Shown: positions 2,746 through 29,248 of the stretch, piece after piece
How positions within the stretch are numbered: the first letter of the stretch is position 1
Layout of the letters: every line of letters begins with the position of its first letter
DNA from: Desulfohalobiaceae bacterium
GTDB taxonomy: Bacteria > Desulfobacterota > Desulfovibrionia > Desulfovibrionales > Desulfothermaceae
Assembly: GCA_027013815.1 (NCBI GenBank)
Contig: JALWFY010000073.1
Location: 1 to 64,000, forward strand
Direction: 5' to 3'
DNA: 64,000 nt
The notes under the pieces: generated by a model
What the model was told of the DNA's origin: nothing
Database searches by the model: none
What the model saw: the letters and a program-made list of their open reading frames with translations, nothing else
Translations under genes and position numbers: made by a program

Positions 2746-2913
2746 AACCTTTTTGTTTTTATAAATCCAATTTTTTGGAAAAGAATAAGCCATAACCTAA
2801 AAAATAGCAAGTTTGAACAAACCATGCCAAGATACCACCCCATTTAATAAAAAAGTAGAACCTATTATGAATAATGTCTTCTCCTTTAAATTTTTTCTCT
2901 GCTCTCTATCTAT

Positions 2914-2947
2914 AAAAAAAGCAGCCCACGCCACTGGCGGAGCTGCT
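2914..2947 (-). terminator. Rho-independent terminator of the nuo-fdhA operon
   Basis: Read on the minus strand, 31 bases after the fdhA stop, an outer stem AGCAGC/GCTGCT (2942-2947 with 2920-2925) encloses an inner stem CGCCA/TGGCG and is followed by seven T. This is a strong intrinsic terminator and marks the end of the transcript that begins at nuoA. Confidence 0.85.
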
Positions 2948-2977: not shown

Positions 2978-5740
2978 CTATGCCACCTTTGCCACCTTTA
3001 CTGCACAGACCTTATACTCTGGGATCCCTGCGATTGGATCAAATACTGGATTAGTCAGTAGATTTGCTGGGGCTTCTTTAAAATGAAATGGCATAAAAAT
3101 AGTGCCCTTTCTTGCCACATCGCTCACCTTAACCCTGGCTTTGACCTTTCCTCTCCTAGACTCTACTTCTGCAAGGTCACCGTCTTTAAGACCCAATTCC
3201 TCTGCATCCTCTGGAGACATTTCTATAAAACATTCTGGGGCCAGCTTATTTATTCCATCCACCTTCCTAGTCATGGTACCTGTATGGTACTGATACAAAA
3301 TCCTTCCAGTGGTTAACCACATTGGATATTGATCATCTACTTGTTCTGCTGGGGGTAAAAATTCAATGGCATGGAATTTCCCTTTACCAATAGGGAATTT
3401 TTCTGTGTGCAATATTGGAGTCCCTGGATGTCCAACCTCTGGACATGGCCAAAATTTTCCCTCTTTTTCTAATTCTTTATATGTAATGCCCTTATAGGAC
3501 GGGGTTACTTGCCTAATCTCTTCATAAAGTTCTTCTATAGATGAATATTTCATCTCATATCCCATCCGATACGACAACTCCATTATAATATCTCCATCCG
3601 CCTTTGCCTCTCCAGGTGGGTCAATGGCCTTTCTTACCCTAGATACCCTGCGCTCTGTATTTGTAAAAGTGCCTTCTTTTTCAGCAAAAGCAGCTGCTGG
3701 TAACACCACATCTGCCAACTCAGCAGTCTCGGTCAAAAATATATCTTGAACAACCAGAAAGTCCAAACTCTCTATGGCCTTTCTCACATGTCCTATATCT
3801 GCATCAGACAAAACAGGGTTCTCTCCAATTATATACAAGGCCCTAATACTCTTTTCTAAGGCCTTTGGTATCATTTCTGTGACCTTTAGACCAACCTTAT
3901 CTGGCAGGTTTGCAACTCCCCAGGCCTTTGCCATTTTTGAACGAATATCTGGGTTAGTCACCACCTGATAACCAGAATACACATTTGGAAGCCCGCCCAT
4001 ATCACATGCACCCTGGACATTGTTTTGTCCCCTTAAGGGATTTACCCCTCCACCTTCAATGCCCAGATTTCCGCATAGCAAGGCCAAATTGGCCAAAGAT
4101 TTTACATTATCCGTACCAGTTATATGTTGTGTAATGCCCATAGTATATACTATTGCAGCAGATTTGGCCTTTGCATACATCCTTGCAGCTTCAATCAAAT
4201 CCTGTCTAGATATTCCAGTAATCTTTTCTACATATTCAGGAGTATATTTTTCCACGATTTTTTTTAGTTCTTCAAAACCCTCAGTCCTAGTTTCAACAAA
4301 TTTTTTGTCCCAGAGTCCTTCCTTTATGATTACATGCATCATTCCATTTATCCAGGCGATATCTGTACCAAGATTCTGCCTAAGCCACTTTGTGGCAAAC
4401 TTGGTCATTTTTATACCCCTGGGATCTACTACAATAAGCTTTGTTCCTCTAAATTTTACTGCCCGTTTTATATAGGTAGATATTACTGGATGATTTTCTG
4501 TGGTGTTGGAGCCTGTGATTAGAATTACCTCAGCGTTCTGTAAGTCTCCGATATTGTTGGTCATTGCACCACTTCCAAATGCTGCGGCCAGCCCGGCCAC
4601 TGTGGAAGAATGTCAGAGACGGGCACAGTGGTCAACGTTATTAGTACCTATCACTGCCCTTGCAAATTTCTGAACCAGATAATTCTCTTCATTGGTTATC
4701 CTTGCTGAAGTAAATACGCCTATACTATCTGGTCCAAATTGATCCTTTATCTCAGTCAATTTTTTTGAAATAAAGTCAAGTGCATCATCCCAAGATGCTT
4801 CAGTGAATTGTCCATTCTTCTTAATAAGGGGCTTTTTTAGTCTTTCATCAGAGCTTATAAACCTAAAGCCAAATCTCCCCTTTACACACAAGGATCCATA
4901 ATTTGGGGCCTCATTAGCACCTGTTACTAAAAATATCCTATTGTCTTTTACATAAAGGTCTAATTGACAACCAACCCCACAATATGAACATGTAGTTTGG
5001 ACCTTTTTCATTTGCCATTTCTTAGGCCCAAGCCATTCATATGAAGAAGACAGGGCACCTACTGGACATGCTTGAACACATTCACCACAACTTACACAAA
5101 AATTTTCATCTGGAGCAGGCAATATGGGTTCTGTAAACTCTGCCTTTAGCCTTTCTACATATTCTCTACTGTCAAATAAAGAAGTTACCTTATCGTCTCT
5201 ATCTGCTTTTTTTGCCTCACCGTTCACTTCATATACCCTAATGGCATTATTCACCTGTACGTCAAAACAGGCTTGAATACACCTACCACATCTCACACAT
5301 TTTGAAGAGTCCCATCTAATAAATGGCGTGATATATTTTACCACATAGTCCTTTTCCTTCTTTGTAAGATCAATCCCCTTGGCCCCATATTTCCATACCA
5401 AGTCTTGTAATTCACAATCCCCAGGTATTGGGCATGTGGGACAATCATGATAGCCTAGAGCCAAAAGTTTTTCTAAAACCTCTCTCCTATGGGCCACACA
5501 TTTATCTGATTCTGTTATTATATTCATACCAGCTTCAACTTTAGTCAGACACGCATGTACCAATTCTCCTGAGGGTCTAAGCTCAACCATACAGATATTG
5601 CACTTACCTGTTGGCGTACCAGTTTTCTTTAGATAACACAGCGTTGGAATGTATATATTATTTCTCTGGGCTACTTCTAAGATGGTCTCCCCATCATTAA
5701 AATTATATTCTTTGTTATTTATTATACATTTATTTTGCAT
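2978..5740 (-). CDS. fdhA: selenocysteine-containing formate dehydrogenase, NuoG-like N-terminus
   Basis: One gene of 920 residues read through an in-frame TGA at 4615-4613, which encodes residue 376 (Sec). The flanking residues, DHCARL-U-HSSTVAGLA, are the active-site loop of FdhA/FdhF/FdnG, where U or C ligates Mo or W. The enzyme oxidises formate to CO2 at a bis-MGD cofactor. Clusters in order: 2Fe-2S (C35, C47, C50, C64); a NuoG-type H98/C100/C103/C109 4Fe-4S; two ferredoxin 4Fe-4S clusters (C148-C158 and C215-C225); the 4Fe-4S next to the pterin (C251, C254, C258, C285); then the molybdopterin and MopB C-terminal domains. It has an AAGGAG site and starts 15 bases after nuoN, as the last gene of the nuo operon. 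There is no signal peptide, so it is cytoplasmic. No fdhB or nuoEF gene is nearby, so its electron acceptor is inferred to be the Nuo complex. Confidence 0.93.
4572..4615 (-). promoter_or_regulatory. SECIS-like selenocysteine insertion hairpin in fdhA
   Basis: On the minus strand the UGA (4615-4613) is followed after four bases by CUUCC, then ACA, then GUGGCC, a five-base loop GGGCU, then GGCCGC, seven bases and GGAAG. The upper stem has six pairs (one G-U) and the lower stem five pairs. The loop begins 18 bases after the UGA and carries the GG and U that bacterial SelB requires. This placement and shape fit a bacterial SECIS element. Confidence 0.8.
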
Positions 5741-5755
5741 AACTGTCTCCTTGTT

Positions 5756-7222
5756 CTAGAGAGAAACGGCCCTCATGGCCAATTGCAAGACTCCGTATGG
5801 GATTATGCCTAATATCAATGTCCCAATTAAAGATATTATCAAGCCTATTGAATTATATATGCTACCCTCGATAGGTCTATCCTCCACTGTATTTGTCTCC
5901 TCTGCCCTAGTATATATGGTAATTATAAGTCTAAGATAATAATAAGCTGCGATTGCACTATTTATAACTGCTATGACAACTAACCATATATATCCTGCCT
6001 TTACAGCAGAACTAAATACCACGAACTTTGCTATAAACCCCCCTGTAGGAGGGAGCCCCATTAATGAACATAAAAATATTACCATACATAATCCAATTAT
6101 AGGCTTTCTAAATCCAAATCCCTTAAACGAGTCATAATCATCCTTTAGACCAAGGAGATTTTCAACATATATAACCACACCAAAAGCACCTAGATTCATA
6201 AACGTATATACTAAAAGATAAAATAAAATTCCCCCATAACCATAATTACTCCCAGCTACTACTGCGACAAAAATATATCCCGCATGAGCAATACTGGAAT
6301 AAGCTAGCATCCTCTTCACACTATCCTGTCTAAGGGCACATATATTACCAACACTCATTGTTATTACTGCTAACACCCAAAATAATGTATGCCAGTTTAT
6401 ACTAATTTTTAATAAGGTATGCCCAAATATCCTCAAAAATACAGCAAGTGCAGCAGCCTTAACCCCAACCGCCATATAAGCTGTTATTGGCGTAGGTGCA
6501 CCTTCATATACGTCTGGCGTCCACATATGAAATGGTACAATAGCGATCTTAAATGCCAAACCAAACAATACCAAGGTTCCTCCAAACAATAAATAAAATC
6601 TATTTGTTATTTCACCTGCAGCCACTAGATTGGTTATTTTTTGCAGATCCAGTGTACCTGTGGCCCCATAAATATATGTTAGCCCATATAAGAAAAATGC
6701 AGCAGAAAATGCACCTAGTAATAAATATTTTAAAGACGCCTCAGTTGAAATCTTTTTTTGTTTTGTAATACCAACCAACACATACACTGCTAAGGAAAAT
6801 ATCTCTAATGCCAAAAATACCATTATCAAATTAATAGACTGAACCATGAGTATCATACCCGCTGAGCTAAACAATAACAGGACATAATATTCATTTATCT
6901 CAGCACCTTCCTTTGCTATTGCATTCCTAGAAATCAAAATCACAACAATAGTGGCAATCAAAAGTGTTGCCACAAGAAATATGCTAAATTTATCTATTAT
7001 TAACATCCCATTAAATAGGACGTTTCTTTTCAGTCCATATAATACATATAAACTAAGAAGAGCTAGTACAGATCCTATGAGTGCCACCCCACTTCCATAT
7101 CGTCCTTTATCACCAAATCCGCTCACCGCTGATCCCATAAGAATAATTAAACCTGATGCCAACAAAATCAAAAAAGGAAGAAACCCTACACTATCTTTTA
7201 TATACTGAATCCCTAGAATCAT
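5756..7222 (-). CDS. nuoN: NADH-quinone oxidoreductase subunit N (antiporter-like)
   Basis: A 488-residue membrane protein with about 14 hydrophobic segments, one of three antiporter-like proton-translocating subunits of complex I. The Proton_antipo_M signature is seen in the middle: the [21 protein letters not shown] region carries the conserved Lys, and [21 protein letters not shown] the second Lys motif. It overlaps nuoM by four bases (ATGA) and precedes fdhA by 15 bases. Length is normal for NuoN (about 480). Identification against NuoM and NuoL rests on order and on the [15 protein letters not shown] wording typical of NuoN. Confidence 0.95.
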
Positions 7223-8772
7223 GACCTTTCGCCCTTTAAATTTTTCAAAATGTTTATCTTGGTGTTACCTTCACTAATCTTTATCTTCTCGTATTTACTT
7301 ACAATATTCTTTATTGATGGTTCCATCTTTGACAAAAATGTATTTGGATGTACCCCTATCCAAACTATAAATATAATTAAAGGCACTAGTATCCATACCT
7401 CTCTTGCAACAAGATCCTTTAATTTAAGATTCACCTCATGTACCACCTTGCCAAACATTACCCTTTGATACATCCACAACATGTACCAGGCAGCCAGGAT
7501 AACCCCTGAAGCAGCCAACACACCTAACCACCACTTGGCCTTAAAGGCACCTAACATTATAAGAAATTCCCCTATAAAGCCATTGAGTCCAGGTAAACCT
7601 ATTGAGGAAAGTGTGACTATCATAAAAAATGTAGCATATAATGGAAGACATTTTGCCAACCCACCAAATTCAGCTATTAATCTAGTGTGCCTCCTCTCAT
7701 ATATCATGCCCACCAAAAGAAACAAGGCACCTGTTGAAAGCCCGTGGTTTATCATTTGTATCATTCCACCTGTAAGGCCTTGCACATTTAGTGCAAACAC
7801 CCCTAACATAACAAAACCTAGGTGACTCACACTGGAATAAGCAATTAATCGTTTTAGGTCCTTTTGCACTAAACACATAAAGGCCCCATAGATAATGCCT
7901 ATCACTGCCAATATGCCCATGAACTCCATAAAATACATAGTAGCATGAGGAAAAAGAGATAGATTAAAACGAACAAATCCATATGTCCCCATCTTGAGTA
8001 ATACACCAGCAAGTATTACACTCCCAATAGTAGGTGCTTCTGTATGAGCATCTGGCAACCATGTGTGAAAGGGAAACATGGGAACCTTAATAGCAAAGGC
8101 AATCCCAAATGCCAAAAACAACCAAAATTCATACCTAAATGGAAGTTTTAACTGAAACATCTTTAATAAATCAAAGGTATAATCCCCTGTGACCTTGCCG
8201 TGATAAAAATATAATACCAGGATCCCAACTAACATCATCATTGATCCTGCCATTGTATACAAAAAAAACTTTACTGATGCATATACCCTTCTCGCTGGTG
8301 CACCCCAAACCAAGATCAGCAAAAACATTGGCACTAACATAAGTTCCCAAAATATATAGAACAGAAAAAGATCAAGTGCACAAAAGACTCCAATCATAGA
8401 TACTTCTAAGAATAAAAATGCAATCAAAAACTCTTTGACCTTATCTTGTATGTCCTTCCAACACGCAGCAATACATATTGGACATAAAAAAGTGGTTAAT
8501 AATACAAGCAATAGACTAATTCCATCTACACCCACATGATAGCTTATTCCCAATGATGGGATCCAATTTACTTTTTCCACAAATTGAAAATCAGCAACAT
8601 TTTTAAAGGCAAAAAACAAAGGAAGAGAAATGATAAAATCTATAAGTGTTGTCCAAAAAGCTATCCATTTTTGGAGATATCCATCTTTTCGCTCAGTAAA
8701 GGCAATGAGCAAGATTCCAATTATAGGAAAAAAGATTATGATTGATAGGATGGGGAAGTTTGTTTCATGCAT
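7219..8772 (-). CDS. nuoM: NADH-quinone oxidoreductase subunit M (antiporter-like)
   Basis: A 517-residue membrane protein with about 14 transmembrane helices, of the NuoM family. Seen motifs are [19 protein letters not shown] near residue 90, the key Glu in [10 protein letters not shown] (about residue 142), the Lys in [19 protein letters not shown] (about 230), and [16 protein letters not shown]. All are known parts of the proton path. It follows nuoL by 23 bases and overlaps nuoN by four. The last 30 residues form a charged cytoplasmic tail. Confidence 0.96.
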
Positions 8773-8795
8773 AACACAAGACCTTCTTTAATTTT

Positions 8796-10709
8796 TTAAA
8801 ATAAATTCCACAGCAATAAAATTACTGCCCCAAGAAACATGACCAATCCATAAAACTGTACATAACCAGTAGTGGTTCGCCTTAATACTCCTCCAACACC
8901 CATTAAGGACCTTCCGGTCCCATTTACAGATCCGTCTATTACGGCCTGGTCCACTGCAATTGATAAAATCTCACTAAGATTATAAAGAGGCTTGACCACA
9001 ACCATTTGATATATCTCATCTACATAATATTTGTTGAACAACAACTTATATAGACCAGCAAATTTTTCCCCAAGTCTCTTTGGCAACTCAGGATTCTTTA
9101 TATAAAATTTATATGCAATCAATATCCCAAGACCTGCTACTATTAATGAAAGGGTCATTAATGCCCCTTCTAACCAAACACTCACACTGGCCTCTTCCAT
9201 CTTAGATATTTCGTGGGCATGATGAAAGACTGGAGATAGGAAGCCTCCTAATATCTTTAGGTTATGAAAAAATGGAAGCTGAATCCAACCACCAATTAAA
9301 GACAATACTCCAAGTACACAAAGTGGAAGAGCCATTCTCCATGAAGGTTCGTGAATATGTTTTTCCAACTCTGGTTCAACATGAGATTCTCCACGAAATG
9401 CAATAAAATAGAGTCTGAACATGTAAAAGGCAGTCATAAGTGCCCCAATTAATCCAAGTATGTACAACACATTGTGATGACTCATAAATGTTTCAAATAA
9501 TACTTCGTCCTTACTAAAGAAACCTGCAAATGGAATGATACCTGATATTGCCAAGGTAGCAGATAAGAAGGTAATATGTGTAATAGGCATTTTTTTATGT
9601 AAGTTGCCCATTTTTCTGATATCCAACTCACCTGCCAAGGCGTGTGATACGCTTCCAGCACACAAAAATAAAAGGGCCTTAAAAAACGCATGGGTCATTA
9701 AGTGAAATATACCTGCTGCAAATGCACCAACTCCACATCCTAAGACCATATAACCTATCTGGCTTATAGTAGAATAAGCCAATACCCTTTTCATATCCAC
9801 CTGAACCAATGCCATGGAAGCAGCATACACTGCTGTAAGACAACCTATTACAGCCACCACTCCCAAAGAAAAGGGGGCCAAGGCATATAATACACTACAA
9901 CGAGCCATCATATAAACACCCGCAGTAACCATAGTTGCTGCATGTATTAAGGCAGACACTGGTGTTGGGCCTTCCATTGCATCTGGTAACCACACATATA
10001 GGGGAATCTGGGCTGACTTACCAGTAGCACCCACAAAGAGCAACAGCGTTGCAGCAGTTATAAGTCCACTGCCCACTTGGAACATTTGAGGAGCCTTTTC
10101 AAAGACTACCTTAAAATTTAAAGTATGAAAGGTAGTAGCTATTATGAACATGGCAATTAAAAAACCAAAGTCGCCGATCCTATTCACTATAAATGCCTTT
10201 TTCCCAGCATTTGATGCTGAGTCCTTCTCAAACCAAAAACCAATGAGCAAATATGAGCAAAGACCTACTCCTTCCCAACCTACAAACATCAAGAGAAAAT
10301 TATTAGCCATCACCAATGTGAGCATCATTGAAACAAATAAATTTAAATATACAAAAAATCTCACATATCCTGGGTCTTCCTCCATATATTCCCCTGCATA
10401 TATGTGGATCAAAAAACTAACCCCTGAGACCACAAGGACCATCACCATGGTAAGGGGATCTATTAAAAAACCCGCTTCAATGTTAAAGCCTCCTGCCTTT
10501 ATCCAGCTATAAAAAGTAATTTCTATTGAACGTGCCTCTGGAGGATAGGCTAGTAATTTCACAAGGGTGACAAGCCCACACAAAAACGCAAGACCTATTG
10601 CTGAGGCTGCTATAAAGGCAACTACCTTTTTGTTAAAAAATTTGCTCAAAAAACCATTTATCAAAAATCCTAAAAACGGAAAGAATACAATTAACCATAC
10701 ATATTTCAT
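8796..10709 (-). CDS. nuoL: NADH-quinone oxidoreductase subunit L (antiporter-like)
   Basis: A 637-residue membrane protein, the largest antiporter-like subunit and the distal end of the complex I membrane arm. Conserved features seen are WEGVGLCSYLLIGFW (channel Glu), KSAQIPLYVWLPDAMEGPTPVSALIHAATMV (listed here as two adjoining motifs: the Lys of KSAQ and the PTPVSALIHAATMV helix), and QVDMKRVLAYSTISQIGYM. The C-terminal part (about 500-637) contains the long lateral helix that spans NuoM and NuoN. The start at 10709 lies 15 bases after the nuoK stop. Confidence 0.96.
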   Translation of the reverse strand: MKYVWLIVFFPFLGFLINGFLSKFFNKKVVAFIAASAIGLAFLCGLVTLVKLLAYPPEARSIEITFYSWIKAGGFNIEAGFLIDPLTMVMVLVVSGVSFLIHIYAGEYMEEDPGYVRFFVYLNLFVSMMLTLVMANNFLLMFVGWEGVGLCSYLLIGFWFEKDSASNAGKKAFIVNRIGDFGFLIAMFIIATTFHTLNFKVVFEKAPQMFQVGSGLITAATLLLFVGATGKSAQIPLYVWLPDAMEGPTPVSALIHAATMVTAGVYMMARCSVLYALAPFSLGVVAVIGCLTAVYAASMALVQVDMKRVLAYSTISQIGYMVLGCGVGAFAAGIFHLMTHAFFKALLFLCAGSVSHALAGELDIRKMGNLHKKMPITHITFLSATLAISGIIPFAGFFSKDEVLFETFMSHHNVLYILGLIGALMTAFYMFRLYFIAFRGESHVEPELEKHIHEPSWRMALPLCVLGVLSLIGGWIQLPFFHNLKILGGFLSPVFHHAHEISKMEEASVSVWLEGALMTLSLIVAGLGILIAYKFYIKNPELPKRLGEKFAGLYKLLFNKYYVDEIYQMVVVKPLYNLSEILSIAVDQAVIDGSVNGTGRSLMGVGGVLRRTTTGYVQFYGLVMFLGAVILLLWNLF

Positions 10710-10724
10710 AGTTCTCTTAACCCT

Positions 10725-11027
10725 TTACCATTTTAAAAGATTAGCCCTGTCTGCTGATATGGACTTGTGATGCCTATATAAATTAACAATAATTGCAAGC
10801 CCAACAACTACCTCTGCTGCGGCCACAACCATGACAAAAAATACAAAAATCTGACCATCCAAATTTCCCAAGAATCTTGAAAATGCAACAAACGTAAGAT
10901 TTGCTGAGTTCAACATAAGTTCAATTGACATAAAGATAATTAAAGTGTTCCTCCTGTATAACACTCCTATAATTCCTATAGTAAACAGGATACCGCTGAG
11001 GATTAAATAATAATTAAGGGGTATCAT
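10725..11027 (-). CDS. nuoK: NADH-quinone oxidoreductase subunit K
   Basis: A 100-residue protein with three transmembrane helices, normal for NuoK (MrpC-like). It carries the family motif [20 protein letters not shown] with the conserved membrane Glu (about residue 36), and a second buried acidic pair in [11 protein letters not shown] (Glu about residue 72). The start is three bases after the nuoJ stop, so the two are translationally coupled. Confidence 0.95.
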
Positions 11028-11030
11028 GGC

Positions 11031-11555
11031 CTAATCCTTTATTTGTTTTTTCTTTCCAAGAACAATTATGCCTATAGCTGCAACTAGCAATAAAAGAGAG
11101 GTTACTTCAAATGGTAACAAATATTTATTGAATAAAACTTCGCCTATGGCCTTTGTATTGCTATTATTAATAAACATCCAGCTAATACCTTTTAAACCCT
11201 TCATAAATTTCGCATTATATGCTGCATTTGCTACTGTAAAAACTATTACTATAAAAATTAGACACAGAGAAATTATTAAAAAGAAATTATTTTTATAAAG
11301 CACTGTCTCTTTTATAGGGTGTTTAATATCAAGTAACATTATAATGAATAGAAAAAGTACCATAATGGCACCTGCATACACCAATACCTGCATAAGGGCC
11401 ACAAACTCTGCATTTAATATTATATAAATAGCACCCATAGAGAAAAAACTTATGATTAAACTCAAAGCACTTCTTATAGGACTTTTAAAAAATACTACCC
11501 CCAAAGAGGATAGAATACATATCAATGCAAATACTATAAATAAAAATAATTCCAT
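11031..11555 (-). CDS. nuoJ: NADH-quinone oxidoreductase subunit J
   Basis: A 174-residue protein with five predicted transmembrane helices. The NuoJ signature is seen: ALSLIISFFSMGAIYIILNA, then EFVALMQVLVYAGAIMVLFL, the helix with a pi-bulge in known structures. The C-terminal helix ends in a lysine-rich tail. It lies 12 bases after nuoI and three bases before nuoK. Confidence 0.94.
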   Translation of the reverse strand: MELFLFIVFALICILSSLGVVFFKSPIRSALSLIISFFSMGAIYIILNAEFVALMQVLVYAGAIMVLFLFIIMLLDIKHPIKETVLYKNNFFLIISLCLIFIVIVFTVANAAYNAKFMKGLKGISWMFINNSNTKAIGEVLFNKYLLPFEVTSLLLLVAAIGIIVLGKKKQIKD

Positions 11556-11567
11556 AGTCTTACCCTT

Positions 11568-11978
11568 TTACTTTATAAGCTTTGGCAAATCATATATTAA
11601 ATTTCCCCTCTCATATTGGGCCAATTCATATTCTTGTGTCAGTTTAATCGCCTCTTTTGGACATACTTGTTCACAATAACCACAGTATATACACCTTCCT
11701 AAATCAATTACATATTCTCTTGGATATCTAATATCAGGTGTTTTTCCCTCTCCTGCCTCGATTGTAATGGCCTGTGAAGGACATACTGCCACACATAACA
11801 TACATACCACACACTTTATCTTTCCTTCTCTATCAACAACCAGACCAGGTCTTCCCCTAAATCTATCAGGAAGCTCCCTTTTTTCTTCTGGATATTGAAC
11901 TGTAATCTTCTTTTTAAATGCCTGTTGAAATGTCTTTGATAATCCCTGTATCAAAGGATATACAATGGTCCTAATCAT
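11568..11978 (-). CDS. nuoI: NADH-quinone oxidoreductase subunit I (two 4Fe-4S)
   Basis: A 136-residue ferredoxin-type subunit of the connecting arm. Two full cluster motifs are seen: C-VV-C-ML-C-VAV-CP (about residues 56-66) and C-IY-C-GY-C-EQV-CP (about 95-105). These carry N6a and N6b, which pass electrons from the NuoG-side wire to NuoB. The N-terminus begins with an amphipathic helix (IVYPLIQGLSKTFQQAF) that in complex I lies on the membrane. In this operon it is the likely docking partner of the FdhA N-terminal clusters. Confidence 0.95.
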   Translation of the reverse strand: MIRTIVYPLIQGLSKTFQQAFKKKITVQYPEEKRELPDRFRGRPGLVVDREGKIKCVVCMLCVAVCPSQAITIEAGEGKTPDIRYPREYVIDLGRCIYCGYCEQVCPKEAIKLTQEYELAQYERGNLIYDLPKLIK

Positions 11979-11994
11979 TTTATTTCATCCCCAT

Positions 11995-13023
11995 CTATAA
12001 AAAGAGCACACAAATTCCAGTAGCTATTAAATTGGCCATAGCTATAGGAAATAAATATTTCCACCCAACACTCATCAGTTGATCAAACCTGACCCTAGGA
12101 TAAGTACCCCTGACCCAGATAAAAAATATAAATAAACATGCCACTTTTATAATAAACCATATACCCGATGGAAGCCATGGTCCCTGCCACCCCCCAAGGA
12201 ATAAGGTCACTGCAATGGCACTAATAGTTATTATATGAATATATTCAGCTAAATAAAAAAGGGCAAATTTCATAGAGCTATACTCTGTATTAAACCCTGA
12301 GCCCAATTCATTCTCACATTCAATCAAGTCAAAAGGTGTCCTACAGGCCTCAGCAAATCCTGCAATCATATATAATATAAATCCAAGTGGCTGATAGACC
12401 ACAAACCACATATGTTTTTGGGCCTCTACTATTTCAGTCATGCGAATTGAACCAGTTATCATCAACACACCCATTATTGAAATTCCCAAAAACAATTCAT
12501 AGCTCAACATCTGAGAGGCCACCCTCATGGCCCCAAGAAATGAATATTTATTGTCTGAGGACCATCCAGCTAACAAGACCCCATACACACTTAAGGAAGA
12601 TACTGCCAAAATAAACAAGACTCCACCTGGTAAGTCTGCTATGACCCCTCTGTTCAAGCTATATTTTGTAAGATCAAATACCTTACCAAATAGGGTTATT
12701 GTATCAGGGGCAATCTTGTCTGCAAATGGTATAGCCACAAATGGGAATAGGGCAGTGACTCCAGCAATTAATGGAGCAAGTATGTATATGGTCTTTTCTG
12801 TAACTGGAAGGGTTATATCTTGTTTACAAAACAATTTTATACCATCTGCCACTGATTGGAGGATTCCGTAGGGACCACACCTGTTAGGGCCATACCTTAA
12901 TTGAATAAACCCCAAGATCCTCCGCTCTAAATAAACCCCAATCATTACACTGACCATTATCAGTGACACTAATACCACACTTTTAATAAGTGAGACGATG
13001 ATAAATACAAGGCTTTCTGCCAT
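11995..13023 (-). CDS. nuoH: NADH-quinone oxidoreductase subunit H
   Basis: A 342-residue membrane subunit that forms the quinone chamber, with eight predicted helices. Signatures seen are LERRILGFIQLRYGPNRCGP near residue 33 and the FAEACRTPFDLIECENELGSG loop (quoted as FAEACRTPFDL and ECENELGSG), rich in the conserved acidic residues that couple quinone chemistry to pumping. An AAAGGG site precedes the ATG. It follows nuoD by 31 bases and precedes nuoI by 16. Confidence 0.96.
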   Translation of the reverse strand: MAESLVFIIVSLIKSVVLVSLIMVSVMIGVYLERRILGFIQLRYGPNRCGPYGILQSVADGIKLFCKQDITLPVTEKTIYILAPLIAGVTALFPFVAIPFADKIAPDTITLFGKVFDLTKYSLNRGVIADLPGGVLFILAVSSLSVYGVLLAGWSSDNKYSFLGAMRVASQMLSYELFLGISIMGVLMITGSIRMTEIVEAQKHMWFVVYQPLGFILYMIAGFAEACRTPFDLIECENELGSGFNTEYSSMKFALFYLAEYIHIITISAIAVTLFLGGWQGPWLPSGIWFIIKVACLFIFFIWVRGTYPRVRFDQLMSVGWKYLFPIAMANLIATGICVLFL

Positions 13024-13054
13024 AGTAAAACCCTTTTTATTCAGTTAATTAACA

Positions 13055-14224
13055 TTATCTATCTACGTCAGCTAATACTATATCAATAGTGCCTATCAAT
13101 GCTATTAAGTCGGAAAGTAACCTACCCTTTGCCAATTTAGATATTACCTGTAGATTTACAAAGGAAGGTGTCCTTATCTTGACCCTATATGGATGTTCTG
13201 AGCCATCACTTACAATATAAAAACCCAATTCTCCCTTTGGGGCCTCAGTATGATGAAAAATCTCTCCCTTTGGAGCCTTAAAACCCTTTACTACCAATAA
13301 ATAGTGGGGGATCAAATATTCTCCATTTATCACTTTATCCTTTGGAGGAAAAGCAACTTGATAGTCCTCTATCATTATATCCCCCTTTGGAAGGCGATCC
13401 ACGGCCTGCAGGATAATATTACAACTCTGTCTCATCTCTTCCAAACGAATGAGATACCTATCATAGGTATCCCCGTTTTCACCCAATGGTACAACAAATT
13501 CAAACTCATCATACCCAAGATATGGATCTACCCGACGTATATCAAAATTAAGCCCTGATCCCCTTGCCATGGGACCACTTAGGCCATAGTCCAGGACTTC
13601 CTCCTTGGTTAATACCCCAACTCCTTTAGTCCTATTGATCCATATGGGATTTTTTGTAAGTAGGGTCTCATAGTCTCTCATCCTCTGTGGTAATTCTAGA
13701 GCAAATTTTTTTATTTCTTGTTCTAGCCCATCAGGAAAATCCCTTGCCACTCCCCCTACTCTGAACATGTTTGGGAATAACCTTTTCCCTGCCCATGTTT
13801 CAAAAAAATCCATTATTATTTCCCTGTCTCGTAGGGCATAAAACAAGGGAGTCATTGCACCTAGATCATGTCCATGGGTGGCTAACCAAAAAAGGTGGCT
13901 TGCGATCCTGGTTAATTCTGCAACAATAACCCTAATATATCTTGCTCTCTCCGGGATCTCTGAAATTCCAAGAAGCCTTTCCACTGCTAAAACATAGCCC
14001 AGACTATTGGCCGCGCCTGCAAGGTAATCGACCCGCTCAGTAAGAGGTATGGATCTATGATAGGTCCTATTCTCCATTAATTTTTCAATACCCCGATGCA
14101 AGTATCCTATATCAGGATCACAACTAACTACTACCTCGCCCTCTAACTCTACCAATAACCTCAACACCCCATGGGTACTTGGATGTTGTGGTCCTACATT
14201 TAATTTAATTATTTCTTTTCTCAT
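13055..14224 (-). CDS. nuoD: NADH-quinone oxidoreductase subunit D (49 kDa)
   Basis: A 389-residue subunit, the homologue of the [NiFe] hydrogenase large subunit that lines the quinone site. The N-terminus carries NVGPQHPSTHGVLRL with the HPSTHG quinone-binding loop; the DPDIGYLHRGIEKLMENR motif follows, and the C-terminus ends in IDIVLADVDR, as in complete NuoD. The hydrogenase-type Ni ligands are absent, as expected. Its ATG overlaps the nuoC stop (TAATG), so NuoC and NuoD are separate proteins here, not the NuoCD fusion of Escherichia coli. Confidence 0.96.
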   Translation of the reverse strand: MRKEIIKLNVGPQHPSTHGVLRLLVELEGEVVVSCDPDIGYLHRGIEKLMENRTYHRSIPLTERVDYLAGAANSLGYVLAVERLLGISEIPERARYIRVIVAELTRIASHLFWLATHGHDLGAMTPLFYALRDREIIMDFFETWAGKRLFPNMFRVGGVARDFPDGLEQEIKKFALELPQRMRDYETLLTKNPIWINRTKGVGVLTKEEVLDYGLSGPMARGSGLNFDIRRVDPYLGYDEFEFVVPLGENGDTYDRYLIRLEEMRQSCNIILQAVDRLPKGDIMIEDYQVAFPPKDKVINGEYLIPHYLLVVKGFKAPKGEIFHHTEAPKGELGFYIVSDGSEHPYRVKIRTPSFVNLQVISKLAKGRLLSDLIALIGTIDIVLADVDR

Positions 14225-14685
14225 TATCTGCCTTCTACTGGATAATCCTTTCTTAATGGATGACCATCAAACCCTTCCCAAAGTAATATCCTTCTCAAAT
14301 CAGGATGTCCCTCAAAGACTATACCAAACATATCAAAACATTCCCTTTCATGCCAATTTGCAGTATTCCAAAGCCCTACAACTGAAGGTATAGTAGGTGG
14401 TTCACCTTGTGAGGCCCAGGTCTTTACACGTAACAAACAATTTCTCTCATGACACCATAGATGATATACAACCTCAAATCTTGGATCGTCTTCATAACGA
14501 TCCACTGCTGTAACATCTATCAAATATTTGTATCCAAAATCGTCCTTTAATATCTTGAGCACCTCAAGAAGGGAAACTTGTCTTACTACAAGCGTAACCT
14601 GATCTCTAAATTCTACATGTGACACCAAACTTTCAGGGGGAAGAGATTCAATAACACCTTTAATATAATCTTTCAGATTCTCCAT
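14224..14685 (-). CDS. nuoC: NADH-quinone oxidoreductase subunit C (30 kDa)
   Basis: A 153-residue protein of the peripheral arm. The family signature is clear: WHERECFDMFGIVFEGHPDL followed by RRILL.WEGF and HPLRKDYPVEGR at the C-terminus. It starts three bases after nuoB and shares one base with nuoD. The N-terminus is shorter than in E. coli, where it is fused to NuoD. Confidence 0.95.
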   Translation of the reverse strand: MENLKDYIKGVIESLPPESLVSHVEFRDQVTLVVRQVSLLEVLKILKDDFGYKYLIDVTAVDRYEDDPRFEVVYHLWCHERNCLLRVKTWASQGEPPTIPSVVGLWNTANWHERECFDMFGIVFEGHPDLRRILLWEGFDGHPLRKDYPVEGR

Positions 14686-14688
14686 ATC

Positions 14689-15198
14689 CTAACCTTCTAC
14701 CTTTTTTGGAAACTTAATATGCTCATACTTCTTTGTTAACCATTTATCCTGCATAATTTTCTCATGTATCTTTGTTATCCCGTAAAGCAAGGCATCTGGA
14801 GGAGGTGGACACCCCGGCACATAAACATCCACTGGCAAGTATTTATCTATCCCCTGAACCACTGCATATGACCTAAAAATACCTCCACATGTGGCACATG
14901 ATCCCATAACCATTACCCATTTAGGATCTGGCATTTGTTCATACAACCTCAACACTGCAGGCAACATCTTTTTTGTCACAGTCCCAGCTACTATCATCAT
15001 ATCAGCTTGTCTTGGAGAAGGCCTATATGCCTCCATGCCAAATCTTGCTATATCGAATCTTGATGCAGCAGTACAAATCATTTCTATAGCACAACACGCT
15101 AGTCCAAATGTTAAAGGCCATACAGAATATTTTCTAGCCCAATTTACTACCTTTTCTAATGTTGTAACTAATATTCCTCCAGATTCTTCTATTCCCAT
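14689..15198 (-). CDS. nuoB: NADH-quinone oxidoreductase subunit B (N2 cluster)
   Basis: A 169-residue subunit that carries the terminal 4Fe-4S cluster N2, the direct reductant of quinone. Ligand motifs seen are the tandem cysteines in [10 protein letters not shown] (about residues 34-35), MGSCATCGG (about 98) and VPGCPPPPD (about 128), the full set of four. It overlaps the end of nuoA by ten bases. Confidence 0.97.
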
Positions 15199-15545
15199 TT
15201 TAGTGCACCCTTCTTTATTACATAAAATAATCCAATTAAAAGTACTGTAAAAAAGATAACCATCTCAATAAAACCTACTATACCCAGGTCCTTATAAACT
15301 ATCAGCCAGGGATAGAAAAAAACAACTTCAATATCAAATACAATGAATAACATTGCAATTACATAAAATTTTATTGGTACATACGCTTCTTTAGGTCCAG
15401 CAGGATCTAAACCACATTCATAAGGTATTTTTTGAATATCTGTCAAAGGTTTCTTCCCAACCAATGAAGAAATAAATAGAATAGAACCCATCATAACTAC
15501 TATCAATAACAAATATAAAAGTACTGGGATATAGTATACATTCAT
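15189..15545 (-). CDS. nuoA: NADH-quinone oxidoreductase subunit A
   Basis: A 118-residue protein with three membrane helices and the NuoA motif YECGLDPAG, then [21 protein letters not shown]. The frame stays open to a TTG at 15575, but the ATG at 15545 has an AAAGGTG site eight bases away and gives the usual NuoA N-terminus ([14 protein letters not shown]). It is the first gene of an eleven-subunit nuo operon in the standard order A-B-C-D-H-I-J-K-L-M-N, with nuoE, nuoF and nuoG missing. Confidence 0.95.
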
Positions 15546-26109: not shown

Positions 26110-27202
26110 ATGGAACTAAAAGAGATTGTTCAACAGTTTAAAGAGATCCTAGATAATCCCTTTGAATATCTAAAAGGACTAAAGAGGCCAATAATTGCAT
26201 ATACATGCACATATGTGCCAGATGAAATCATATGGGGTCTTGGATTCCACCCTGCAAGGATCATTGGAACCTCTGAAAACCTGGAAATAGCACAGATGCA
26301 CCTACAACCCTATTGTTGTCCTGTTGGGAAATCCATCCTACAGGATCTACTATCTAAAAATCTACCTACCGCCCATGTAGTTTTTTGCAAACACATGTGA
26401 TACCATGCAGAGGATTTCAGATATATTTAGGATAAATAAGACCAATGTTCATCATATAGATTTCATGGTCCCTACAAAATTAAATTCCAAACCATCTGAG
26501 GAATATTTATATAATATAACAAAAAAATTCTATCATGTTCTAAAAAAAGACTCCCATTCCGAAGATAAGGTACTAGAATCTATTCATTTATTTAATCATA
26601 TGAGAGATCTAATAAAACGTATCACCTATATATCTAGCCAAAGTACAACACTTTCCAACCTAGATTTATATATTATACAATTAGTTGGAATGCTCATGGA
26701 TAGAAAGGAATATACCAGAGGATTAGAAGGGATTTTAAATTCCATTGAAAGCTCTCCACAACAAAAATTTATGGATCAAAAAAGGATTATAATAAGTGGC
26801 AGTATGTGCCAATCTCCTCTTTTATATAAAATTCTAGACCAATTAAGTGCCAGAGTAGTGTACAATGATACGTGTACTGGGAATAGAGCTTATGATAGGG
26901 ATGTGCACATAACAAAAGATATAATTAAAGGTGTATCTACTAGTTTTATTGATCGTCCAATCTGTGCAGCAAAACATGCTGGGACCTTTTCAAGGATAGA
27001 TTATCTAAAGTCCCTAATAAAAAAATATAGGGCCCAGGGGATGATTTATCTAGTGCCTAAATTCTGTGATCCCCATTCCTTTGATTTCCCAGACATAAGG
27101 GCACATATTAATATCCCGATATTATTTTTGGAAATAGAGCATCAACACGGGCTACATGGTCAAGAACATACTAGGATCCAGGCATTCTTAGAAAGATTAT
27201 AA
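26110..27202 (+). pseudogene. HgdB/BcrC-type 2-hydroxyacyl-CoA dehydratase subunit, frameshifted
   Basis: Two reading frames of one gene. The first (26110-26400) runs MELKEIVQQF to a TGA and contains the family's first Cys motif (YTCTYVPDEIIWGLGFHP). The second (used from about 26387 to 27202) contains ANTCDTMQRISDIF, the second conserved Cys. They join if one T is removed from the run of six T at 26381-26386, giving a 363-residue protein of normal length. These proteins carry a 4Fe-4S or double-cubane cluster and reduce or dehydrate acyl-CoA thioesters after low-potential electrons arrive from an HgdC-type ATPase. Both parts look otherwise intact, so a sequencing or assembly error in the homopolymer, or translational slippage, is as likely as true loss. 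An AAGGAG site precedes the ATG. Confidence 0.85.
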
Positions 27203-27223
27203 CCCAAAATCAGGAGATCAAAT

Positions 27224-28450
27224 ATGGTAGAATATAAAAAAGCACCTATTAAGGCCAAGGACAAGATGAAACAAATAATGACCAATTATTTTTTAGATGC
27301 TTACAGTGCAAAAGATAATGGTAAAAAGATAGCATGGATAACCAGTGGTGGTCCAGTAGAGCCCTTACTAGCCATGGATATCATACCAATTTATCCAGAA
27401 AACCACGGGGCAATGATTGGTGCATCAAAAATGGGTCAAAAACTTTGCTCTTATGCACAGGGGTTGGGATATCCAAATGACCTATGCTCATATGCCTTAG
27501 CAGACATTGCTTGTAGTAAAGGAGAAAAGGGGCCAATTGGACAACTTCCTAAACCTGACCTATTAATATGCTGCAACAATATATGTTCCACTGTAGTAAA
27601 ATGGTATGAGATACAGGCAAGGTACTTTGATGTTCCCCTATTTATTTTAGATACTCCAATGTGTCATACTGGATTTTCTTATGAAATAAGGTCCTATGTT
27701 GAACAACAATTTTATGAACTATTTTTGTTTTTAGAACACATATGCAAAAAAAAATTCAATCAAGAAAGATTACAACACATTGGGATGCTGTCTATCCAAG
27801 CCCAAAGACTGTGGCAAGAGATACTTGAAACTACAAAACATTCACCTGCTCCCATGAGTGCATTTGACGCATTCTTCCACCTGGCCCTTATTGTAACCCT
27901 GAGAGGGACACAGGTCTGTGTGGATTATTATAAGGAATTATTAGAAGAAATGCATCAAAGGATAGAGCAAGGTATTTGCGCTGTTCCACAAGAAAAATTT
28001 AGAATCTTGTGGGATAATCTACCAATATGGTACAGGACTAAATGGTTATCAGATAAATTTGCCCAAAAGGGGGTATGTCTAGTAGCAGATACATATACCT
28101 CTGCATGGTGCAGTTCTTTAAAATATATTGATGAAAACAATTTCTTAAATCCCTTATCAGAGGCATATACTAGGATCTATTTAAACCAAGGTATTGATAT
28201 AATGGCAGATGAAATAATTAAAATGATAGAAAAATATATGATACACGGCTTTGTTATGCACTCAAATAGGAGTTGCAAACCATACTCCTTTGGGCAGTAT
28301 GATATACAAAATATAATTAGAGCTCAAACTGGTATACCTATACTTATAATAGAGGCAGATATGCTAGATGAGACTAAATTTGCAGAGGGACAAATTGAAA
28401 GCAGAATTGAGGCATTTGTGGAACTCTTAGAAACCAGATATGAAGCATAA
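27224..28450 (+). CDS. HgdA/BcrB-type 2-hydroxyacyl-CoA dehydratase family subunit
   Basis: A 408-residue partner of the previous gene, 21 bases downstream. Family features seen: ITSGGPVEPLLAMDIIPIYP near residue 45, the cysteine-rich stretch QKLCSYAQGLGYPNDLCSYA, then LPKPDLLICCNNICSTVVKW, and FILDTPMCHTGF. The C-terminal half has HSNRSCKPYSFGQYDIQ, the third cluster-binding motif. Together with the frameshifted subunit and the activator it forms a complete HgdABC/BcrBC-like set. The substrate is unknown: 2-hydroxyacyl-CoA dehydration, aryl-CoA reduction and double-cubane-type reduction of small molecules are all possible. No acyl-CoA transferase lies nearby. Confidence 0.88.
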   Translation: MVEYKKAPIKAKDKMKQIMTNYFLDAYSAKDNGKKIAWITSGGPVEPLLAMDIIPIYPENHGAMIGASKMGQKLCSYAQGLGYPNDLCSYALADIACSKGEKGPIGQLPKPDLLICCNNICSTVVKWYEIQARYFDVPLFILDTPMCHTGFSYEIRSYVEQQFYELFLFLEHICKKKFNQERLQHIGMLSIQAQRLWQEILETTKHSPAPMSAFDAFFHLALIVTLRGTQVCVDYYKELLEEMHQRIEQGICAVPQEKFRILWDNLPIWYRTKWLSDKFAQKGVCLVADTYTSAWCSSLKYIDENNFLNPLSEAYTRIYLNQGIDIMADEIIKMIEKYMIHGFVMHSNRSCKPYSFGQYDIQNIIRAQTGIPILIIEADMLDETKFAEGQIESRIEAFVELLETRYEA

Positions 28451-28474
28451 CCTTACCTTAAGGAGGGGCCTTTT

Positions 28475-29248
28475 ATGATTAGCGTTGGAATAGATATTGG
28501 TTCAATTACAGTAAAATGTGCCGTAATAAAGGACAATGAAATATTGGCAACATCTTTAGACCTAACTGGATTTGACGTAAAAAAAGCATGGAACAAAGTA
28601 TTTTATGATACCATTAATAAAGCAAACATCCTTGAAAAACAAATAGACTATATTATATCTACCGGCTATGGTAGAGAAAGCGTGGACATTGCAGACAAAA
28701 AAATAACAGAGATCACCTGCCATGGAGCTGGGGCACATTTTTTAGACCCAAGGGTTCGAACTGTGATAGACATTGGTGGACAAGATTCCAAGGCAATATC
28801 CTTGGATAAAAATGGCAGGATCCTGGATTTTGTCATGAATGATAAATGTGCCGCAGGCACTGGACGTTTTTTAGAAGTCATGGCCAGGGCCATGGGGGTT
28901 GACTTAAAGGAATTTGGAAACTTATCATTAGAGGCAAAAGATCCAGTAAAGATAAGTAGTTTATGTACTGTATTTGCAGAATCTGAAGTTATTACCATGG
29001 TATCCAAGGGCAAAAAAAGAGAGGATATAATCGCAGGAATCCATAACTCCATTGCATCTAGGACATTTTCAATGGCCAACAGGCTCCAAATTTCGCCTCC
29101 TATAATGCTCACTGGAGGCGTAGCCAAGAATAAAGGACTTGTGAAGGCATTGGAAAAAAAATTTGCCCAAGATATTATAGTAAGTCCTTTTGCTCAATTA
29201 AATGGAGCAATTGGTGCTGCTTATCTGGCACAAAATCATAAAAAATAG
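28475..29248 (+). CDS. acyl-CoA dehydratase activase (HgdC-type ATPase)
   Basis: A 257-residue member of the ASKHA ATPases, of normal length for HgdC/FldI. It dimerises around one 4Fe-4S cluster and uses ATP to push an electron to the dehydratase. Seen motifs: VGIDIGSITVKCAVI (phosphate 1), DIGGQDSKAI (phosphate 2), DKCAAGTGRFLEVMA with the first cluster Cys (about residue 125), SSLCTVFAESEV with the second Cys (about 164), and LTGGVAKNKG (adenosine). It has an AAGGAGG site and follows the second dehydratase subunit by 24 bases. Confidence 0.95.
   Translation: MISVGIDIGSITVKCAVIKDNEILATSLDLTGFDVKKAWNKVFYDTINKANILEKQIDYIISTGYGRESVDIADKKITEITCHGAGAHFLDPRVRTVIDIGGQDSKAISLDKNGRILDFVMNDKCAAGTGRFLEVMARAMGVDLKEFGNLSLEAKDPVKISSLCTVFAESEVITMVSKGKKREDIIAGIHNSIASRTFSMANRLQISPPIMLTGGVAKNKGLVKALEKKFAQDIIVSPFAQLNGAIGAAYLAQNHKK

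Follow-up and report, generated by a model that had tools for sequence, protein, structure and literature searches.

Which enzyme delivers electrons to a complex I that has no NADH module? In descriptions of eleven-subunit forms of complex I no donor enzyme is linked to them; ferredoxin, among other candidates, has been proposed, or the donor is given as unknown (PMC11238625; PMC5736913; PMC12142623). No donor common to them has been found, and its identity is an open question (PMC11238625). Here we analyse a 64,000-nt stretch of DNA, hereafter the window, which comprises positions 1 to 64,000 of contig JALWFY010000073.1 (assembly GCA_027013815.1) from an uncultured Desulfohalobiaceae bacterium (Desulfobacterota, Desulfothermaceae). 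It carries the same nuoABCDHIJKLMN set without nuoEFG, followed by fdhA, which encodes a formate dehydrogenase (FDH) with a predicted catalytic selenocysteine (Sec). On balance we favour the reading that this operon encodes a 12-subunit proton-pumping formate:menaquinone oxidoreductase, in which FdhA stands in for the NADH module, NuoEFG, as a whole.

A complex I operon that ends in a formate dehydrogenase gene

Twelve genes, nuoA-B-C-D-H-I-J-K-L-M-N and then fdhA, run along the minus strand from 15545 to 2978, with the coordinates and order that an earlier note on this DNA had given. All eleven Q- and P-module subunits of complex I are encoded in this one operon, in the canonical order of respiratory complex I (Nuo), from which it differs in lacking NuoE, NuoF and NuoG and in having an intact Mo/W-Sec FDH instead. 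The intergenic distances from nuoA to fdhA are, in order, -10, 3, -1, 31, 16, 12, 3, 15, 23, -4 and 15 nt, a range of -10 to +31; gaps of 0-31 bases had been noted for the nuo genes. As also noted before, fdhA starts 15 nt past the end of nuoN with its own AAGGAG ribosome-binding site inside the gap (5747..5752, minus strand).

fdhA (2978..5740, minus strand) encodes a formate dehydrogenase alpha subunit of 920 aa when its single in-frame TGA is translated as U. This TGA is codon 376 (4613..4615), the position of the Mo/W ligand, in the motif CARL-U-HSST; Sec was absent from the earlier note. U376 is followed by H377, and in a 27-member alignment of FdhA and its relatives (A1) every sequence has His after Sec or Cys. 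Codon 376 is read as selenocysteine. The genome has a tRNA-Sec gene (84 bits), and a candidate SECIS hairpin (-19.4 kcal/mol) is not significant (z -1.1). The protein lies above the cut-off of the TIGR01591 Fdh-alpha model (915 bits, cut-off 666) and below that of the TIGR01973 NuoG model (321 bits, cut-off 470). FdhA is thus not filed as NuoG, yet it may work in the place of NuoG.

The N-terminal Fe-S domain of FdhA (residues 1-232, 5045..5740) carries a 2Fe-2S site (51 bits), an N5-like site HxCxxCx5C (residues 98-109, 5414..5449; PF10588 38.7 bits, cut-off 27) and two 4Fe-4S motifs, with matches to the Pfam families Fer2_4, PF10588 and Fer4_7. The NuoG-like cluster order that had been recognised in this N-terminus is therefore present, PF10588 region included. 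By itself the order counts only as weak evidence, since it is also seen in soluble FDHs of the FdsA type, in ForC and in most of the stand-alone relatives. A compact N5-like site was also considered as a special feature of the window protein and was dropped, as most relatives match PF10588.

Over its full length, a lone-chain model of FdhA (mean pLDDT 75.5, from an alignment of 27 sequences) resembles FDHs of the FdsA type and ForC (TM 0.78-0.81), and the NuoG chains of complex I stand lower among its matches (TM 0.60-0.66). Residues 163-214 fall below pLDDT 50; they span an insertion of ~23 residues (about 185-207, 5120..5188) that lies between the two 4Fe-4S motifs and, in the alignment, is specific to the genus. 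The best structural matches, the NAD-dependent FDHs FdsA and MeFDH1 (6tg9, 7vw6; TM about 0.78, 36-38% identity), have the same full-length fold and cluster order. They differ in pairing with a NuoF-like FMN subunit, none of which was found in the window genome.

Absence of the NADH module and conservation in the genus

A genome-wide search of the window genome (G000) gave no match to NuoE (PF01257), and the single match to NuoF (PF01512) is RnfC, as judged by its sequence and neighbour; the assembly is 95% complete, which makes such absences strong, not absolute. With no NuoG in the nuo operon either, no NADH module of the NuoEFG type was found for this complex I, so that the absence of nuoEFG first seen in the operon extends to NuoE and NuoF across the assembly. 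In two other members of the genus, G002 and G003, NuoF is absent too, save for weak matches of RnfC size.

The same twelve-gene order recurs in two further species of the genus, G002 (locus L009, 80% identical) and G001 (L144), in both of which the gap between nuoN and fdhA is 26 nt and holds a Shine-Dalgarno-like site. All three genus members that have nuo and fdhA thus show the linkage; neither nuoD nor fdhA was found in G003. Flanking genes are common to the genus loci as far as the contigs extend. Because the order recurs in other species, with common flanks where the contigs reach, the operon is not an artefact of assembly or binning, and the comparison across relatives that the earlier note had proposed comes out in favour of a conserved arrangement.

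Judged by NuoD, the nearest nuo operons are those of family f76 (71-74% identity), followed by f56 (about 65%) and f12 (about 62%). All three keep a nuoG in the space from nuoD to nuoH; in the f76 operon that was read from end to end, a NuoEF fusion protein is encoded upstream of nuoA. Their NuoG proteins have no Sec/Cys-His site (e.g. VDATTALDHQRM in L186). In the window, nuoH (342 aa, 11995..13023) begins 31 nt past nuoD (389 aa, 13055..14224), at the point where nuoG stands in related operons. Since the nearest NuoD relatives keep nuoG and f76 keeps NuoEF, the window genus most likely lost NuoEFG rather than never having had it.

Formate dehydrogenases in complex I operons across Desulfobacterota

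We searched 395 Desulfobacterota genomes with NuoD and FdhA and then read the loci. Intact FDHs, with a U/C-H site, occupy the NuoG position of nuo operons in six families (f1, f27, f40, f43, f45 and f47). The order nuoABCD-[SfrB-like]-fdhA-nuoHIJKLMN is seen in f27, f40, f43 and f47 and in one f1 genome (G006), and in f13 an fdhA with an intact site directly precedes nuoA. Two f43 genomes (G097 and G286; loci L206 and L207) have nuoABCD-fdhA(Sec)-nuoHIJKLMN, free of any diaphorase gene from nuoD to nuoH; NuoF-like proteins are encoded elsewhere in both. Because intact FDHs occur in the nuo operons of several families, the linkage of FDH to complex I is recurrent in Desulfobacterota and scattered through the phylum. 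In G005, G007 and G010, which belong to the same family as the window (G010 being read from partial sequence), the protein in the NuoG slot has lost the catalytic motif.

Several further arrangements were met in these loci. The G097 and G286 operons offer a cleaner test case than the window. The f45 operon (L199:3500-14000) has Hdr/MvhD-like genes between nuoD and fdhA. An SfrB-like flavoprotein, a fusion of the C-terminal domain of NuoF with a reductase of the GltD/NfnB type, accompanies an intact Sec/Cys-His FDH at the NuoFG position in L137, L208, L209, L214-L219 and L224; such operons possibly encode a complex I linked to both NAD(P)H and formate. In L138, L139, L140, L202 and L186-L198 the NuoG-slot protein has no Sec/Cys-His motif, giving an apparent FDH-to-NuoG series. 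A Desulfobacteraceae metagenome-assembled genome (L075) has fdhA(Sec) after nuoM and nuoN, with a 243-aa protein that resembles only the C-terminal part of NuoF between nuoN and fdhA (L075:3439-4170). A short Sec FDH of ~685 aa with no N-terminal Fe-S domain lies just upstream of nuoA in three loci (L138:4948-6996, L139:7985-10045, L222:13461-15497). Upstream of an 11-subunit nuo operon in L151 (13571-16281) and in L152 (near 5125) stand a molybdopterin oxidoreductase and a 4Fe-4S protein, which might form a further donor module for complex I. A NuoI motif, YCGxCExVCP, that the window has in common with the diaphorase-less f43 operons was dropped as a candidate, as f43 operons with the SfrB-like gene carry it too.

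Ancestry of FdhA and rapid change of its Fe-S domain

In a 100-sequence tree, the FdhA proteins of the window and of L009 fall inside a clade of stand-alone cytoplasmic FDHs from Desulfobacterales and relatives (27 rows, SH-aLRT 100) and outside the NuoG-position FDHs. As FdhA lies among stand-alone enzymes, many of them in genomes without a NuoD match at the threshold applied, its recruitment in the window genus looks independent of the FDHs at the NuoG position.

In established complex I structures, the N-terminal Fe-S domain of NuoG contacts NuoI. The corresponding domain of the window FdhA is only 43-51% identical to that of 26 mostly stand-alone relatives, whereas the C-terminal domain is 61-70% identical. 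Among 93 control pairs of those relatives with C-domain identity of 55-68%, N-domain identity averages 61% and does not fall below 52.7%. With the topology fixed, the branch leading to the genus measures 1.16 substitutions per site for the N domain and 0.20 for the C domain, so that the N domain changed about six times faster, against an overall N/C branch-length ratio of 1.13. A like excess is seen on one other branch alone, the one from which all NuoG-position FDHs descend (1.22 for N and 0.09 for C), and the direction of change along it depends on the root. These domain tests were picked after inspection of the data and await repetition on an independent sample. A change of partner would look like this combination of acceleration and new insertion; the pattern itself does not name the partner.

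A 43-row N-domain tree groups the genus with the NuoG-position FDHs (96.7) and the C-domain tree groups it with stand-alone FDHs, as does an 89-row N-domain tree. Domain recombination is not claimed: the N-domain trees conflict, and the two long N stems make long-branch attraction likely, which is why our claim is limited to acceleration of the N domain. At 13 diagnostic N-domain sites, the window FdhA has the complex I-linked state at four, against none or one in the 26 relatives, a difference that is suggestive only. Nor do we claim co-acceleration of NuoI. Its identity to f76/f56/f12 is 53-56%, lower than the other subunits would lead one to expect, and that of f76 to f56/f12 is 61-65%, but the genus NuoI is as close to the outgroup f43 as the NuoI of f76, f56 and f12 is.

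Other predicted enzymes of formate metabolism in the genome

The window genome has other FDH-like enzymes. On contig C170 (L145:1374-6054), an SfrA-like FDH paralogue with a catalytic Cys adjoins an SfrB-like flavoprotein, which carries the NuoF-type PF10589 domain and is also found in G002. SfrAB pairs, in which an FdhA-like subunit stands beside a flavoprotein, are regarded as soluble NADP(H) enzymes, and so are fdhF2-nfnB pairs of the same make-up (PMC10553843). The pair on C170 belongs to this kind; the fdhA of the window has no such neighbour. On contig C23 (L154:1520-6589), genes for an Fe-S protein and a membrane subunit follow that of an FdnG-type FDH, which has a TAT-like signal and an in-frame TGA; contig C106 encodes a TAT-type, FDH-like molybdoenzyme. 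The genome also has formyl-tetrahydrofolate synthetase (FTHFS) and a fragmentary match to the acetyl-CoA synthase CdhC, which together suggest a Wood-Ljungdahl pathway that would make or use formate in the cytoplasm.

A proposed route from formate to menaquinone

In the reading that we favour, formate, e.g. from formyl-tetrahydrofolate in acetate oxidation by the reverse Wood-Ljungdahl pathway, would be oxidised at the Mo/W-Sec site of FdhA. Electrons would pass through the 4Fe-4S clusters of FdhA to its N5-like cluster, and from there to N6a/N6b of NuoI, to N2 of NuoB and on to menaquinone. NuoI (136 aa, 11568..11978; TIGR01971 139 bits) has two CxxCxxCxxxCP motifs and is the presumed point of electron entry, NuoB (169 aa, 14689..15198) has the Cys motifs of the N2 cluster, and NuoD (TIGR01962 538 bits) has the quinone-site motif GPQHPSTHG. 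FdhA would dock on NuoI and NuoCD, and the membrane arm NuoAHJKLMN would pump protons as menaquinone is reduced. Textbook potentials of about -0.42 V and -0.08 V give a drop of ~0.35 V, or 67 kJ/mol, which is roughly sufficient for four protons at 0.15-0.18 V.

The proposed arrangement resembles formate hydrogenlyase (FHL), made up of FdhF and a HycE-type relative of complex I, in which an FDH is in electrical contact with a complex I-like membrane arm. FHL reduces protons at a NiFe site, whereas the window encodes a quinone-type NuoD and a complete set of eleven nuo genes. An FdsA-like FDH is linked to menaquinone in ForCE of Bacillus subtilis too, where the partner is the small protein ForE and a proton-pumping arm is missing.

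Weighing the readings

The earlier note had proposed that FdhA replaces NuoG. The missing NuoEFG, the cluster order, the FDHs in the NuoG slot elsewhere and the fast N domain speak for this proposal; the catalytic domain, with its place in the stand-alone clade, does not. Several further observations count against a formate-driven complex. fdhA stands at the end of the operon and not in the nuoG slot. The catalytic domain alone groups with stand-alone FDHs (support 97-100), its grouping with NuoG-position FDHs is disfavoured (p-AU 0.04), and, at the threshold applied, many genomes that encode a close stand-alone orthologue gave no match to NuoD. The grouping of the N domain with NuoG-position FDHs may come from long-branch attraction, NuoI is without clear co-acceleration against an outgroup, and the N5-like site is not diagnostic, because 23 of the 27 members of A1 also match PF10588.

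An alternative is an 11-subunit complex I fed by reduced ferredoxin or flavodoxin, with FdhA as a separate soluble FDH on the same transcript that serves the same pathway and possibly reduces that ferredoxin with formate. Ferredoxin is a favoured donor for 11-subunit enzymes (PMC11238625), orthologues of FdhA stand alone, away from nuo genes, in many Desulfobacterota, the RnfC homologue makes a link between ferredoxin and NADH likely, and the 3' end of an operon is the easiest spot for an unrelated addition. We nevertheless hold this arrangement to be unlikely, although it is the alternative to be taken most seriously: by itself it does not predict the sharp acceleration of the FdhA N domain or the new insertion, and it leaves the recurrent intact FDHs in the NuoG slot unexplained. 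The same complex might instead run in reverse, with menaquinol and the proton motive force pushing electrons uphill to FdhA, where CO2 would be reduced to formate for the Wood-Ljungdahl pathway in autotrophic growth. Sec/W FDHs are able to reduce CO2 and complex I is able to run backwards, and the FTHFS and CdhC matches would fit; yet each formate would take about 4 H+, which is energetically expensive, the genome has its other FDH-like enzymes, and direction is not readable from sequence. This reversed operation seems improbable.

Partnership of FdhA with the SfrB-like NAD(P)H flavoprotein of C170, or with another soluble diaphorase, would make it an NAD(P)-dependent FDH. SfrB-like proteins adjoin FdhA in many relatives and a copy with the NuoF-type domain is present here, but that gene adjoins its own FDH paralogue and the nuo operon is without a diaphorase gene, and we regard such a partnership as more improbable still. 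It is hard to credit that FdhA reduces menaquinone directly, without complex I, in the manner of ForCE. The solved structures nearest in fold to the FdhA model include ForC (8rqz), and ForCE, an FDH that has no membrane helices, reacts with menaquinone (PMC8808070), but inspection of the operon, the only search made, showed no small ForE-like open reading frame (ORF).

Beyond the window, we tentatively propose that complex I serves as a docking platform on which NuoG was exchanged at least twice in Desulfobacterota for an active Sec FDH; the products would be reversible proton-pumping formate:menaquinone oxidoreductases. The window genus would have lost the entire NADH module, independently recruited a stand-alone FDH and reshaped its Fe-S docking domain.

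Remaining features of the operon and the window

The other nuo genes, all on the minus strand, are nuoA (118 aa, 15189..15545), an ORF from the ATG at 15545 with tblastn matches to the nuoA of relatives, and nuoN (488 aa, 5756..7222; TIGR01770 425 bits), together with nuoC (153 aa, 14224..14685), nuoJ (174 aa, 11031..11555), nuoK (100 aa, 10725..11027), nuoL (637 aa, 8796..10709) and nuoM (517 aa, 7219..8772), which were assigned as ORFs by comparison with the loci of relatives. NuoD, NuoI, NuoN and FdhA, the proteins tested, pass their curated models. A terminator-like hairpin with a T run lies 3' of fdhA on the same strand (2912..2935), where the earlier note had mentioned one strong terminator, and a promoter scan scored no better than shuffles. 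Elsewhere in the window (26405-29248), two proteins like subunits of 2-hydroxyacyl-CoA dehydratase/benzoyl-CoA reductase are followed by an activator-like ATPase.

Significance

No description of an FDH in place of NuoG was found in the open-access PMC literature; novelty is provisional and priority is not established. With its NADH module absent and an FDH fixed in the nuo operon, the window genus offers a concrete and testable donor for an 11-subunit complex I. The Desulfobacterota series, from intact FDHs to NuoG-like proteins without Sec/Cys-His in the same operon slot, bears on the relationship between NuoG and FDH. If the favoured reading is true, anaerobes with the Wood-Ljungdahl pathway would have an added proton-pumping route for the oxidation of formate, or a route for CO2 reduction driven by the proton motive force.

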